Below are positions 13,189 through 26,678 of a stretch of 34,539 bases of DNA, in pieces. Below the pieces are notes generated by a model, which made no database searches, was not told the DNA's origin, and worked only from the letters and a program-made list of their open reading frames with translations. Made by a program: the position numbers and the translations under genes. Numbering within the stretch: position 1 is the stretch's first letter; each line of letters opens with the position of its first letter. The stretch covers positions 1 through 34,539 of the forward strand of contig JAAYCR010000073.1 in NCBI GenBank assembly GCA_012729675.1, read 5' to 3'. This stretch comes from Phycisphaerae bacterium (lineage in GTDB: Bacteria > Planctomycetota > Phycisphaerae > Sedimentisphaerales > Anaerohalosphaeraceae).

Positions 13189-13220
13189 TAACCGGATGAA
13201 CCAATTTAACATGGAAAGTG

Positions 13221-13946
13221 ATGACAGTGAGTGACCGAAAGACACCATCGACCGAGGCGATGTTTACGAAGATTGCCGAGCGGTATGACCGGTGCAATCA
13301 TTGGTTCAGCCTCGGTATCGACCGGCTATGGCGAAAGCGGCTGGCGCGGGCGGTTGACGCTGCGGCGGGCGATGCGGCGCTGGATATTTGCTGTGGGACG
13401 GGAGATATGGCGTTCGCGCTGCTCAAATACAGTGCGGCGCGGGCGGTTATCGGGGCCGATTGCAGCGAGCGGATGATCCAGTTGGCGCAGGAAAAGCGGA
13501 TGCGGCTGGCCGTGCGCCGATGGATGACGGACAAGACGCTGCGGCTGCACGTGGCGGACGCGGCCGCGATGCCGTTTGAAGACGGGGCGTTCGATGTCGT
13601 GACCTGTGCGTTTGGGCTGCGAAATATCCCGGATCGCGCCGCGGTGCTGCGGCAGGTGTCTCGTGTACTCAAGCCCGGCGGGCGACTGGGTGTGTGCGAG
13701 TTTTCGCTACCGAAAAATCCGACACTGCGGGCGGTGTATGGGGTGTATCTGTCGCGTGTGATGCCGCTGCTGGGGCGGCTGGTGTTAGGCGACGGCGATG
13801 CGCTGCGATATCTGGCCCGCTCGATCCTCGACTGGGACGCGACTGTGCGGTTGGAGGCGGAACTGACGCAGACGGGATTTGTCGATGTGTGTGCGACGCC
13901 GCTGACCGGCGGGATCGTGACGCTCACCGTGGGGCGGAAGGCCTGA
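13221..13946 (+). CDS. menG: UbiE/MenG-type quinone C-methyltransferase
   Basis: SAM-dependent C-methyltransferase of the UbiE/MenG family, which methylates demethylmenaquinone (or a ubiquinone precursor) at the ring. The family N-terminus MFTKIAERYDRCNHWFSLGI, the SAM motif LDICCGTGD, the acidic strand end IGADCSERM, the post-motif PFEDGAFDVVTCAFGLRNI and LKPGGRLGVCEFS are all in order. The length (241 residues) is normal. Because the neighbouring metabolism looks anaerobic, menaquinone is the likelier product, but the other half of the pathway is not in the window. The ATG at 13221 is chosen; a GTG one codon earlier is equally possible. Confidence 0.88.
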   Translation: MTVSDRKTPSTEAMFTKIAERYDRCNHWFSLGIDRLWRKRLARAVDAAAGDAALDICCGTGDMAFALLKYSAARAVIGADCSERMIQLAQEKRMRLAVRRWMTDKTLRLHVADAAAMPFEDGAFDVVTCAFGLRNIPDRAAVLRQVSRVLKPGGRLGVCEFSLPKNPTLRAVYGVYLSRVMPLLGRLVLGDGDALRYLARSILDWDATVRLEAELTQTGFVDVCATPLTGGIVTLTVGRKA

Positions 13947-21451: not shown

Positions 21452-21515
21452 CCTTTAAACATTGAATAGTGCACGGGCAAGATGCCCGTGCCACGGATTT
21501 TTAAAGGGTTGCCTT
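21452..21515 (+). repeat. Direct repeat left of the GH97 gene
   Basis: A 64-base segment with a perfect internal hairpin (cacgggca-aga-tgcccgtg, 21472-21490). It recurs in degenerate form at 23487-23549 on the other side of the GH97 gene. The same stem with loop ttt is found at 9036-9054. Confidence 0.8.
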
Positions 21516-21548
21516 GACAACAAAGTTATGGAAATATGGAGTAAAGTT

Positions 21549-23417
21549 ATGAAAAAAGCCGGGTTATTCGCACTGATGTTGAGTTTGTGGCTTCCGTCTC
21601 TTGGCGCCACGGAACTGGTGTCGCCGAATAAAAAAATCAAAGTCGTCCTCGAACTCCAGGACAACGCCCAGCCGCAATTTAAGATTCATTATTCAGGCGG
21701 TGAAAAAACCGTTGACGTCTTACAGAATTCGCTGCTGGGTTTGAAGACCGATAAGCAGGATTTTTCGAAGCTGACGCTGGTCAGCGAATCGCCTGAGACA
21801 CAGGTACGCGACGACTATACGATGCTGCACGGCAAACGGAAACATTGTCAAAACACGGGGATTGAAAAAACGTTTCGTTTCAAGAATTCATCGGGCAACT
21901 GTATCGATATTGTGTTCCGTGTCTATAATGACGGCGTTGCCTTTCGATACCTATTGGGTGAATACTCCGACGCGCGGCATTCGATCACGGAAGAATTGAC
22001 GGAGTTTTCTGTTGCCGAGGGGATCAATCGCTGGGTACAGCCGTATAACACCGGTTATGAGGAGTTCTACCCGCTCGCCACAAGAGGCTCGCGGCAGAGA
22101 CGATGGGGCTTCCCGGCCTTGTTTAATATCGAAAACGATGTCTTTCTGCTGATCACCGAGGCGGATATCTCCCGTGCGAATTACGGCAGCTTATTATTTA
22201 ACAAAGACAATGTGAATGCGTACACCGTCGCCATGCCCTCGGATGCCGGCAGCCATTTCACGACCCCGTGGCAGTCGCCCTGGCGGGTGCTCATCATCGG
22301 GCATTTGAGTGACATTGTTGAATCGACGCTGGTGACAGATGTCAGCGGTCCCTGCGTTTTGCCGGATACGTCGTGGATCCAACCGGGTCCGGCATCGTGG
22401 ATTTACTGGGCCCATAATCACGGCACAAAGAATTATAAACTCTTAGTCGAATATGTGGATTTGGCGGTTGAAATGGGATGGCCCTATACGCTGATTGACT
22501 GGGAATGGGATCAGATGGGCAATGGCGGGACCATTGAGGATATTGTCAAGTACGCCAACAGCAAGGGGATCAAGCCGCTGATGTGGTACAACTCGGGTAC
22601 GGCCTGGATGGACCCGACGCCGAACGACCGAGTAAACACAGCCGAAAAACGTGTTAAGGAATTCGCTTGGCTTACCACGATCGGAGTCTATGGTATCAAA
22701 GTGGATTTTTTCTCGGGCGACCAGCAGAAGACGATGAACTACTATATCAGCATTCTCGAAGACGCCGCGAAATATAAATTAATGGTGAATTTCCATGGTT
22801 CGACGATGCCGCGGGGATGGCAACGAACATACCCGAATATGATGACAATGGAGGGGGTGTATGGTGCGGAATGGTATAATAACCGTCCGACACTGACCAA
22901 CAGGGCGGCCGCACATAATGCGACTCTGCCGTACACCCGCAATGTCGTCGGTCCCATGGATTACACGCCGGTAACGTTTACCGATTCCCAGCACAAGCAT
23001 ATTACCTCACACGGCCACGAATTAGCGCTGTCGGTCGTGTTCGAGTCGGCATTTCAGCACTTTGCCGATCGTCCAACGGGATATCGCGATCTGCCCGAAG
23101 CGCCGAAGCAATTCCTGAAAACCGTCCCCGTTGCCTGGGATGATACCAAACTGATCGACGGGTATCCCGGCGAAAAGGTTGTGATTGCCCGGAAAAAAGG
23201 AGACCTGTGGTATATCGGGGGCCTCAACGGCACCGATGAGGCCAAAACCCTGACCGTGACCTTTGATTTTCTCGACAACCAAACCGCCGAATTAGTGCTG
23301 ATTCAAGACGGTACAGACGACAGGTCGTTCGAGACCAAAACCGTGTCGGTCAGAAAAGGACAAACCCTCGACATCCCCTGTCTGCCGCGAGGCGGGTTTG
23401 TCGGCACGCTGCGGTGA
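21549..23417 (+). CDS. Glycoside hydrolase family 97 (alpha-glucosidase/alpha-galactosidase type)
   Basis: A 622-residue secreted glycosidase. MKKAGLFALMLSLWLPSLGA is a signal peptide. The N-terminal beta-super-sandwich (about residues 22-280), the barrel beginning with PYTLIDWEWDQMGNGG (about 308) and the C-terminal beta domain are in GH97 order. The barrel carries GIKVDFFSGDQQ (Asp about 386) and MMTMEGVYGAEWYN (Glu about 434). An Asp in the KVDF strand is what I would expect for the retaining branch, as in alpha-galactosidases, rather than the inverting SusB type; this is inference. ggag seven bases upstream fixes the ATG; an earlier ATG lies inside the direct repeat. Neither Sus transporters nor other glycosidases are adjacent. 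The gene sits between two direct repeats. Confidence 0.88.
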   Translation: MKKAGLFALMLSLWLPSLGATELVSPNKKIKVVLELQDNAQPQFKIHYSGGEKTVDVLQNSLLGLKTDKQDFSKLTLVSESPETQVRDDYTMLHGKRKHCQNTGIEKTFRFKNSSGNCIDIVFRVYNDGVAFRYLLGEYSDARHSITEELTEFSVAEGINRWVQPYNTGYEEFYPLATRGSRQRRWGFPALFNIENDVFLLITEADISRANYGSLLFNKDNVNAYTVAMPSDAGSHFTTPWQSPWRVLIIGHLSDIVESTLVTDVSGPCVLPDTSWIQPGPASWIYWAHNHGTKNYKLLVEYVDLAVEMGWPYTLIDWEWDQMGNGGTIEDIVKYANSKGIKPLMWYNSGTAWMDPTPNDRVNTAEKRVKEFAWLTTIGVYGIKVDFFSGDQQKTMNYYISILEDAAKYKLMVNFHGSTMPRGWQRTYPNMMTMEGVYGAEWYNNRPTLTNRAAAHNATLPYTRNVVGPMDYTPVTFTDSQHKHITSHGHELALSVVFESAFQHFADRPTGYRDLPEAPKQFLKTVPVAWDDTKLIDGYPGEKVVIARKKGDLWYIGGLNGTDEAKTLTVTFDFLDNQTAELVLIQDGTDDRSFETKTVSVRKGQTLDIPCLPRGGFVGTLR

Positions 23418-23688: not shown

Positions 23689-25338
23689 TTATTGCAGAAA
23701 ATCGGGGAGGTATTCGTTGTCGATTTGGGCGGGCGGATTCGGCTGACGGAGGCGTGTGCGTTCGTTCCGCAGTTCGATGTAAGAGCCGCTGATGATCCGG
23801 TCTTCCCTGCCTGTACCGGCCGTTATCTGGATGGCGGCTTTCTCCAAAAGTTCACTTTCTTTGACGTTGGCCGCATAACAGCTTGCCTGACATAGCCCGC
23901 AGCCGACACATTTTTCCTCAAGGACAACCGGCGCCAGGAAGCCCGAATCCGCGATCGGCCTGTTCCGGTTATCATACTGGATACCGATTCGGCGGTATTC
24001 GATCGCATGGTACCCGGCCGCGGCGCAGGCTTCATAACACAGGCCGCATACGTCTTTTTCAGCATGCGGCAGACACGTTGTTTCATTGACTTGTGCCAGT
24101 CCGATGCGGGCTGCGCGTTTTTCTTCGAGCGGCAGGTTTCGGATGGCTCCTGTCGGACAAACCTGGCCGCAATTTGTACAGGAGGACTGACATCCGGCGA
24201 TGTCAGCTTTGATCGTGGGGGTCCAGAGTCCATCGAGGCCCAGCTCAAGCCCGGACGGCTGCAGCACACGACTGGGGCAGATTTTCAGACATTCCCCGCA
24301 TCGGACGCACTGTGCGCGGAACCGAGCCTCCGGCAAGCTTCCCGGCGGACGAATTGGAAAGGTATTTGTATAGCGGCCGCGTTCCCATCTGATCCCTGCG
24401 GCCGCAGCCGCACCGGTTCCGGCGGTTCCGATCAGGCTCAGCAAAAAGAGACGTCGCGAATTCAGTGACGCCGTCGTCGTCGGATCGCCGGAAGCTTTCT
24501 GCTTACGATTCCATCGCCATCCAAATCGGAAGGCCTGTTTGGGGCAGACCGCTTCGCAGTTTCGACAGACGGTGCAGTTCATGTCTCGGGTGGAATAATC
24601 CGGAGCAATCGCATTGAACGAGCATTGCCGGAGGCACCGACCGCAATTGATGCAGGAGGGTTCGACGCGGCGGCGAAAAAGGCTCAATCGGCCTGCCAGG
24701 CCCAGCAGTGCTCCGCTTGGACACAGGTACGCACACCAGAAACGCGGACGCAGCAGGCCGAGTGCAAGAATCCCTACAAAAATCACAATTGACGCTATCT
24801 GCCCGCCCGTGAGGGCGACCGCAGACGCCCGGCCGCTGAACAGGCCGTCCTGCAGCGGTGCCGCCAGAGACACTATCCCCCTTGTCAGTACCGGAATCGC
24901 AGCAGCAAAACCGGATACAAGAACACCAAACACGGCCGCTGTCAAGATACCGACGAGCAGATGGAATCGCAGATAGAACCAACGGGTCTCGGATTTCAAA
25001 CGGAACCGTTTAATGTGACGGTTAATGCTCCAGTCAGTCATGTCAATCAGCGTTCCCAACGGGCATATATATCCGCAGAACCACCTTGGAAAAACCATTC
25101 CGATCAGCAGAACGGCTCCGGCCGTCACTAGCGACCAACTCATCGCCCGCGCGGCCAGGGTTGTGGAAATACCGACCAGTGGATCAAGCCTCAGGAACAG
25201 TCCGAGCGGGCCGGACAAGAGGTTGTTTTCACGGGTGGCGTCGGCCCGGTCGGACCAGCCGCCGGAGAAGAGTACATACAAAAAGACGATCAGGCAAAAG
25301 GCCTGCGCCACACGTCGAAACGGGAGCTTCATAAGCAT
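23689..25338 (-). CDS. NapH-NapG-like fused membrane/periplasmic polyferredoxin
   Basis: A 549-residue fusion of two electron-transfer modules. Residues 1-280 resemble NapH/MauN: four or more membrane helices, the paired motifs CGYICP (88-93) and CAYLCP (202-207), and two cytoplasmic-type [4Fe-4S] motifs, C229xxC232xxC235xxxC239 and C255xxC258xxC261xxxC265. Residues 293-318 then read as a NapG-type twin-arginine signal (NSRRLFLLSLIG plus an Ala/Gly-rich helix). They are followed by a NapG-like ferredoxin domain with CVRCGECLKICP (344-355), CTNCGQVCP (387-395), CGLCYEAC (431-438) and CVGCGLCQASC (477-487). The likely role is passing electrons from quinol or cytoplasmic donors across the membrane to extracytoplasmic partners. 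It starts one base after the stop of the upstream FMN-binding gene. No nitrate reductase is nearby. Confidence 0.85.
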   Translation of the reverse strand: MLMKLPFRRVAQAFCLIVFLYVLFSGGWSDRADATRENNLLSGPLGLFLRLDPLVGISTTLAARAMSWSLVTAGAVLLIGMVFPRWFCGYICPLGTLIDMTDWSINRHIKRFRLKSETRWFYLRFHLLVGILTAAVFGVLVSGFAAAIPVLTRGIVSLAAPLQDGLFSGRASAVALTGGQIASIVIFVGILALGLLRPRFWCAYLCPSGALLGLAGRLSLFRRRVEPSCINCGRCLRQCSFNAIAPDYSTRDMNCTVCRNCEAVCPKQAFRFGWRWNRKQKASGDPTTTASLNSRRLFLLSLIGTAGTGAAAAAGIRWERGRYTNTFPIRPPGSLPEARFRAQCVRCGECLKICPSRVLQPSGLELGLDGLWTPTIKADIAGCQSSCTNCGQVCPTGAIRNLPLEEKRAARIGLAQVNETTCLPHAEKDVCGLCYEACAAAGYHAIEYRRIGIQYDNRNRPIADSGFLAPVVLEEKCVGCGLCQASCYAANVKESELLEKAAIQITAGTGREDRIISGSYIELRNERTRLRQPNPPAQIDNEYLPDFLQ

Positions 25339-25339
25339 C

Positions 25340-26530
25340 TCATTTCATGCCGTCGGACAGGGCTTTGGCCGTGCCGTGTATGATGGCCTCTGCGGTAACC
25401 GTCGCGCCCGTCACCGCATGGACACCTTCGAACCCCTGGCGGGCAACAATCTCCCGCGTTGTCGGCAGTGCCATGATCAGGTAGGAGAAGGTTTCGGAAT
25501 TCCGAAGAATGTCAACTGATACAAGGCGGCCCTGTTTGATGTCAGCCTTGACAGTCATTGGGCCGCCATAAGCATTCACAACGGCCGTGTATGAGCCATC
25601 GGGAATGCGTTTTATGTCGAGTGTTTTAAGGTGTTGGATCGTGGCTATGTTCATCCGGGCCTTGTCTTTCCCGTCGGTCGCATTTCGGCGCACCGGCTGC
25701 ATCGCTGAATCGGGCAGGGCCAAGACTTTTTCATACAGGACAATCGCCTCATCATACCGGCCCGCCGCGCGGAGAATACCTGCCGAGAGAAGATATTTAT
25801 CGCTTTGCGATAACCCGCGGGCGACCCCTCGGCCACCGCTCTGGCCGTCAAAGCCGGACTCGATGAGAGCCAGAGCCTTATCCACCTCGCCTATCCTGGC
25901 CCACAATTTGACCAGGTCCCGGTTGTTGCGGGCGGCATTGCTGTCAAGCGACGCGAGCAGGGCTTCGGCGGCGGCTTTGCTTCCCAGTTCATGGTAACAA
26001 CGAGCCATTTTCAGCGGATCGACAGAACCGCCCATCTGCGCGTATTTCTGCCACCAGAACGCGGCCCGGGCATAGTCGCCCAACAGTTGATAAAACATAT
26101 CCCCCAACATGTTAAGCGACCGTCGGAGTTTATCCGAGTCGTCCTTGTGGAGGATCATGAGATGATGCACCAGCCGGATACCCGCCTTATAGCGGGGAGG
26201 ATTCGGGTAAATCACCTGCGTCAGATAATCGTCAACATTCGTCGGGGAAGCTGTCCCCGATCCGGTCCCGCGGGCGCCTCGCCCTCGTCCACCTCCTCCG
26301 GGACCTTGGAGCCCCTGCCGGACCGGCCAGCTCAGATCCAGCGTCTCAGGATAATTCAGTTCTACCGAATCCCACCACTCCGGCGAGGTACTGCCGGCGG
26401 TCCTGATTGCTTCGTCCGCTTCGGCCTGGGTTTTATGCGCGCCGGTCTGGCCATTGATCTGCAATCCACAAAATACGAATCCAGATGCCATTAAAACAGC
26501 AATATATTTGATGATCAAATCGGTGTTCAC
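25340..26530 (-). CDS. Exported TPR protein with C-terminal FMN-binding domain
   Basis: A 396-residue protein with an N-terminal signal or anchor (about residues 5-27), a low-complexity Gly/Arg segment (PGGGGRGRGARGTG, about 77-90), TPR-like helices (about 110-300) and a C-terminal FMN-binding domain like those of RnfG, NqrC and NosR (about 308-396). The motif VTGATVTAEAI contains the Thr (about 377) that is covalently flavinylated in characterised members by ApbE; apbE is not in the window. It probably passes electrons to or from the NapH-NapG-like protein, whose gene begins one base after this stop. The start is a GTG with ggagag eight bases upstream. A TPR-FMN architecture is unusual to my knowledge. 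Confidence 0.8.
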   Translation of the reverse strand: MNTDLIIKYIAVLMASGFVFCGLQINGQTGAHKTQAEADEAIRTAGSTSPEWWDSVELNYPETLDLSWPVRQGLQGPGGGGRGRGARGTGSGTASPTNVDDYLTQVIYPNPPRYKAGIRLVHHLMILHKDDSDKLRRSLNMLGDMFYQLLGDYARAAFWWQKYAQMGGSVDPLKMARCYHELGSKAAAEALLASLDSNAARNNRDLVKLWARIGEVDKALALIESGFDGQSGGRGVARGLSQSDKYLLSAGILRAAGRYDEAIVLYEKVLALPDSAMQPVRRNATDGKDKARMNIATIQHLKTLDIKRIPDGSYTAVVNAYGGPMTVKADIKQGRLVSVDILRNSETFSYLIMALPTTREIVARQGFEGVHAVTGATVTAEAIIHGTAKALSDGMK

Positions 26531-26678
26531 GTTACATTCTCTCCATTATTTATATTTTTATGCAAAACGAAACGTCCCCATGCGCTTATGCTGCTTTGGA
26601 AAACAGTAGGCCCTCCGATGCAATTGAACAGCATCGGGAAAACTTAAGAAACAATCCAAGCACCCCTGCGGGATTGAT

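Follow-up and report, generated by a model that had tools for sequence, protein, structure and literature searches.

What might be accomplished by an iron-sulfur membrane protein that is encoded directly behind a flavin-binding protein, with no terminal reductase at hand? The question is raised by two genes of a Phycisphaerae bacterium (contig JAAYCR010000073.1), found within a stretch of 34,539 nucleotides that was analysed as a whole and is referred to here as the window. The TGA stop codon of the first gene, whose product carries a tetratricopeptide repeat (TPR) region and an FMN-binding domain, is followed by a single base (G, position 25339) and then by the ATG of the second, which encodes a fusion of NapH-like and NapG-like modules. 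The reading that we consider probable is that the two products form a two-component transmembrane conduit, in which electrons run outward from a donor in the cytoplasm or the membrane, through a chain of Fe-S clusters, to FMN and an extracytoplasmic partner.

The first gene, preceded by the sequence GGAGAG (plus strand, 26539-26544) located 8 nt 5' of its start codon, displays the following features:

25340..26530, minus strand: TPR-FMN gene, an open reading frame of 396 aa with a GTG start
26453..26530, minus strand: signal-like hydrophobic N-terminal helix, residues 1-26 (hydropathy peak of 2.11 at residues 5-23; model helix 3-26)
26246..26317, minus strand: Gly/Arg-rich linker, residues 72-95 (pLDDT < 50; missing from several homologues)
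25622..26236, minus strand: helical TPR superhelix, residues 99-303 (Pfam TPR_19 above cut-off, model helices, and Foldseek matches to TPR proteins)
25346..25597, minus strand: FMN_bind domain, residues 312-395 (PF04205, E 2.5e-8; 8p2b, rmsd 1.5 A)
25400..25411, minus strand: TGAT flavinylation motif, residues 374-377 (T374-G375-A376-T377; Ala-Thr kept in 25/25 homologues)

The original prediction of a TPR region with a C-terminal FMN domain bearing TGAT, placed at residues 308-396, agrees with these data. The Pfam FMN_bind match covers residues 321-391 with 34.9 bits against a cut-off of 22, TPR_19 scores 28.2 against a cut-off of 25 while the remaining TPR models are weak, and an AlphaFold model generated from a five-sequence alignment (pLDDT 74.8) consists of a helical-repeat superhelix and an alpha/beta FMN domain with strands in 312-343 and helices at 348-364 and 377-395. 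In Foldseek searches, the N-terminal part of the model resembles TPR superhelices, and the C-terminal part superposes on the crystal structure 8p2b (CbFMN4 domain 1) over 80 columns at 1.5 A. A spurious FMN domain is ruled out by the Pfam and fold matches together. The signal-like helix suggests that the protein is exported, either secreted or anchored, and T377 is the predicted FMN acceptor. In 10 of the 25 TPR-FMN homologues, some of them encoded directly beside apbE, Ser, Ala or Gln takes the place of the Gly of the [S/T]GAT motif, and the Ala-Thr is invariant in all; flavinylation may thus not be universal in the family.

The second gene encodes a polypeptide whose modules are arranged as follows:

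23689..25338, minus strand: NapH-NapG fusion (polytopic polyferredoxin), 549 aa (open reading frame with NapH and NapG profile matches)
24490..25320, minus strand: NapH-like membrane module, residues 7-283, with four predicted TM helices (PF12801 matched twice; hydropathy peaks at 10, 65, 127, 178)
25060..25077, minus strand: CGYICP, the first CX3CP (Cys invariant in 48 sequences)
24718..24735, minus strand: CAYLCP, the second CX3CP (Cys invariant in 48 sequences)
24544..24654, minus strand: two [4Fe-4S] motifs, residues 229-265, on the predicted cytoplasmic side (profile matches and Cys conservation)
24391..24456, minus strand: twin arginine and fifth TM helix, Tat-like, residues 295-316 (RR in 22/22 members of one clade, see below)
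23872..24351, minus strand: NapG-like domain with four [4Fe-4S] motifs, residues 330-489 (NapG model match; 16 invariant Cys)

In NCBIfam, this protein is best matched by NapG, over residues 290-489 (E 9.6e-26, 90.5 bits), and by NapH, over residues 7-281 (E 6.3e-24, 84.6 bits); neither match reaches the curated equivalog cut-off (269 and 234 bits, respectively). All 28 Cys residues and R296 are invariant across 48 homologous fusions, and R295 is replaced by Lys in 13; the 28 residues amount to 7 x 4, or sets for seven 4Fe-4S clusters, with the existence of a cluster at the CX3CP pairs being unsettled (PMC5928378). The Tat-like helix is less hydrophobic than TM1 (Kyte-Doolittle value of 1.59 vs 1.88) and is followed by positive charge (+2). 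No usable structural model of the fusion was obtained (pLDDT 36.9). The single intergenic base, the NapH-like module, the internal twin-arginine helix and the NapG-like domain had all been proposed from the sequence and are confirmed here. An assembly frameshift joining ordinary napH and napG genes, which would have refuted this assignment, is ruled out, the 48 homologues, from three phyla, each being encoded in one frame.

How do these proteins relate to systems that are already characterized? NapH-NapG fusions have been described under the name "polytopic polyferredoxin" by Tooke et al. 2017 (PMC5449189), who report for one member a dual insertion by Sec and Tat in which the last helix needs Tat; the domain assignment made in the original prediction is supported, but such fusions are not new. 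The fusion matches this class in being a single frame, with RR directly before a less hydrophobic TMD5, positive charge after it, and seven Cys sets. The likeness extends to PFD Q1NSB0 of delta proteobacterium MLMS-1, described in the same paper as a NapH-NapG protein with five TM helices, the fifth preceded by a twin arginine, and with 28 Cys in total, which provide for four clusters outside and three sets inside; the text of that paper drawn on here mentions no FMN partner for it, whereas the fusion in the window has one. Among the flavinylation systems catalogued by Méheust et al. 2021 (PMC8238504), one class, of 539 clusters, combines a NapH-like protein with an FMN domain encoded by its own gene. 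The pair shares with it a PF12801 protein beside a separate FMN_bind gene, a TGAT that fits [S/T]GA[S/T], and an ApbE in the genome; it differs in that NapG is fused to the membrane protein and the FMN domain to TPR. Neither TPR nor tetratricopeptide is mentioned in the main text of that survey, whose supplementary tables may list such clusters unnamed. Literature searches returned nothing relevant on DUF362 with NapH, or on TPR with FMN-binding. Both halves of the pair are of known kinds, and the pairing with a TPR-bearing FMN partner appears not to have been reported in the literature found.

The pair does not show the defining features that were tested for NapGH proper, for RnfG/NqrC and for NosR. 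Its modules are homologous to NapH and NapG, but the E. coli and Wolinella NapGH proteins are separate subunits that serve NapA, whereas here they are fused, score far below cut-off, and occur in a genome without a NapA-type enzyme. RnfG and NqrC share an FMN_bind domain with an [S/T]GAT motif, but the TPR-FMN protein carries a TPR N-terminus, has no RnfD-type partner, and misses the TIGR01947 (RnfG/NqrC) cut-off (14 vs 102 bits). The cut-off of the NosR model NF046105 is likewise missed by the pair (36.2 vs 1000 bits). PceC/RdhC and NosR resemble the pair in having a NapH-like core with CX3CP that acts together with a covalent FMN domain on the outer side; for PceC, covalent FMN has been described outside, beside the NapH-like core (PMC5928378). 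In those proteins, unlike here, the FMN domain belongs to the same polypeptide, NapG is absent, and a known terminal enzyme is linked.

The manner in which the conduit would operate can be outlined from these comparisons. The fusion would be inserted by Sec for its four helices and then by Tat for the fifth, so that two [4Fe-4S] clusters would face the cytoplasm, four would lie outside, and the CX3CP pair would be close to the membrane, a topology that is modelled on the experimentally tested polyferredoxin (PMC5449189); export of the C-terminal domain is predicted to be Tat-dependent. The TPR-FMN protein, secreted or anchored, would receive its FMN from ApbE at Thr377. A donor in the cytoplasm or in the membrane would supply electrons that travel outward along the Fe-S chain to this FMN, and the TPR superhelix would carry the flavin to, or recruit, an extracytoplasmic partner encoded elsewhere. 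Support comes from the architecture, the conservation of Cys and RR, the pairing within one clade, the linkage to apbE in relatives, and the presence of TatC and ApbE in the genome; the outward direction, flavinylation, TPR docking, donor and acceptor are inferred.

The distribution of the two proteins adds to this picture. A scan of genome contigs yielded full-length homologues of the fusion in Sedimentisphaerales (L008, L011), in other Planctomycetes (L009, L010) and, beyond the phylum, in Chloroflexi (L012) and in a MAG of Deltaproteobacteria that is listed under Myxococcota (L013). With search profiles built from five and seven rows, TPR-FMN is detected in 16 of 392 sampled Planctomycetota genomes (E <= 1e-20) and the fusion in 73 of the 392 (E <= 1e-90); a single-protein search found no TPR-FMN in 58 nearer relatives. 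The occurrence of the pair is patchy, and in L047 and L050 the sequence covered contains TPR-FMN genes but no fusion. Forty-eight mapped fusions, a sample picked by score and taken largely from MAGs, divide into clades of 22 and 26 (split support 100/99), and the fusion of the window is placed together with the two from Sedimentisphaerales (100/99); the exact tree positions of the long branches L053, L013 and L099 are unsure. The GC content of the contig (0.53; 0.58 for the pair) does not set it apart from other contigs of the same genome (0.47-0.57).

It is the neighbouring gene that distinguishes the two clades, as judged in the relatives mostly by eye or with small local profiles. In the planctomycete clade of 22, a gene with an FMN domain (TPR-FMN or related FMN) lies directly upstream in 18; in three more, a TPR-FMN gene belongs to a same-strand run at a distance of 2-3 kb, upstream of the fusion in L043 and L045 and 2.2 kb downstream of it in L052, and none was found at the L097 locus. 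In the clade of 26, DUF362 is directly upstream in 15, which represent every member with an identified neighbour; at the other 11 it went undetected, partly with short loci and partly with a profile from only two sequences. The polyferredoxin thus splits into clades by its outside partner, FMN or DUF362, the relatives in Chloroflexota and Myxococcota having DUF362 and not FMN as neighbour. Fusions outside the FMN clade (L084-L094, L099, L012, L013) mostly stand directly behind DUF362, often with a 4-base overlap, and in L012 and L013 the DUF362 protein has a Tat-like signal. Many of those that belong to family f53 also bear a C-terminal extension of approximately 300 aa of unassigned function.

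Linkage to the flavin transferase is seen within the FMN clade itself. The apbE gene adjoins the pair in G226, G133, G201 and G114 and is nearby in G197 and G167, while in G286 a partial, weaker match lies downstream; this proximity is evidence of a link between the pair and flavinylation that does not depend on the motif. At one locus, a five-gene run (L038:6446-13534) consists of apbE, FMN, fusion, TPR-FMN and fusion, that is, two tandem conduits. In the host genome, which is 99.9% complete, TatC is present (200.6 bits), and the apbE that the original prediction called for is found once, on another contig (C13, 178 bits), unlinked to the pair. Two Rnf-type FMN proteins must depend on this single ApbE as well; FMN_bind proteins are encoded in two Rnf/Nqr-type clusters of the genome, which are separate from each other (L003 on C10 and L004 on C41). 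The enzyme is itself fused: it makes up the C-terminal region of a frame of 846 aa (L014:10032-12572, minus strand), the N-terminal half of which resembles PMT-type membrane glycosyltransferases; the PMT-ApbE fusion is kept in the congeners G001 and G003 and in other relatives, and elsewhere corresponds to two adjacent separate genes. Three genes away is a multiheme cytochrome-like protein of 610 aa (L014:15494-17326, minus strand) with several CXXCH motifs and a C-terminal hydrophobic helix, a possible acceptor-side component. Beside the pair itself lies a convergent GH97 glycoside hydrolase gene (21462-23417, plus strand), and promoter and terminator scans remained at chance level.

As regards the donor, quinol and ferredoxin are about equally likely in the host genome, and relatives may differ. 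The first possibility, a tentative one, is that the fusion, like NapGH, takes its electrons from menaquinol, reduces FMN and feeds a periplasmic reductase. It finds a precedent in NapGH, a quinol dehydrogenase described as characterised (PMC5449189), and the window holds a UbiE/MenG-family methyltransferase gene (13218-13946, plus strand) that passes the TIGR01934 cut-off, so that quinones may be made. Against it, the genome displays no match to MqnA/MqnD (PF02621), a sub-threshold match only to MenD (43.6 vs 244 bits), and neither cytochrome bd subunit I nor any molybdopterin oxidoreductase. The domain assignment and the pairing behind the conduit as first proposed, running from the quinone pool or cytoplasm to an external flavin, hold, while its quinone-pool half is weakened in this genome by the results for MqnA/D and MenD. 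The second possibility, to be held as tentatively as the first, is that reduced ferredoxin, for instance from pyruvate:ferredoxin oxidoreductase (PFOR), feeds the cytoplasmic clusters, then the NapG-like clusters and FMN, with no quinone involved. A PFOR gene is indeed encoded in the window (32414-28839, minus strand; TIGR02176 passed with 1856 bits), the tested quinone and respiratory markers are missing, and Rnf-type proteins are present; PFOR, however, is in no evident operon with the pair, and to our knowledge there is no direct precedent for a NapH fed mainly by ferredoxin.

Two further readings concern the direction and the role of the transfer, and both are unlikely. Electrons might be sent inward through FMN by an outside oxidase or dehydrogenase, as could be imagined from the NapH-like systems with alcohol oxidases noted by Méheust et al. 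(PMC8238504), but no dehydrogenase was recognised beside the pair at the examined loci, whose neighbours were only partly profile-searched. It is equally improbable that the electrons serve maturation or repair rather than respiration, maintaining the reduced state of a metalloprotein or a thiol partner outside the cytoplasm. A role in NosZ activation has been proposed for NosR, the two-gene unit stands alone without a conserved reductase, and TPR may be suited to several clients; on the other hand, no client has been identified. Finally, service to a nitrate reductase is ruled out, since the genome has no PF00384 match and therefore no NapA, and the original observation that no terminal reductase lies nearby extends genome-wide as far as molybdopterin oxidoreductases are concerned.

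If the outward conduit is taken together with the ferredoxin donor, a more specific scheme emerges, which as a whole is rather doubtful: a quinone-independent wire from ferredoxin, through the seven Fe-S/Cys sites of a dual Sec/Tat polypeptide, to a covalent flavin presented by TPR, which would be a docking hub for several outside acceptors in an apparently fermentative planctomycete without the tested menaquinone and respiratory markers. At the level of the family, two catalogued and functionally open groups, the NapH-NapG polyferredoxins and the flavinylated NapH-like systems, are joined into one testable unit. If the pair does move electrons in a genome that makes no quinones, it would represent a further way across the membrane, from ferredoxin to flavin, and would also provide a candidate functional context for DUF362.
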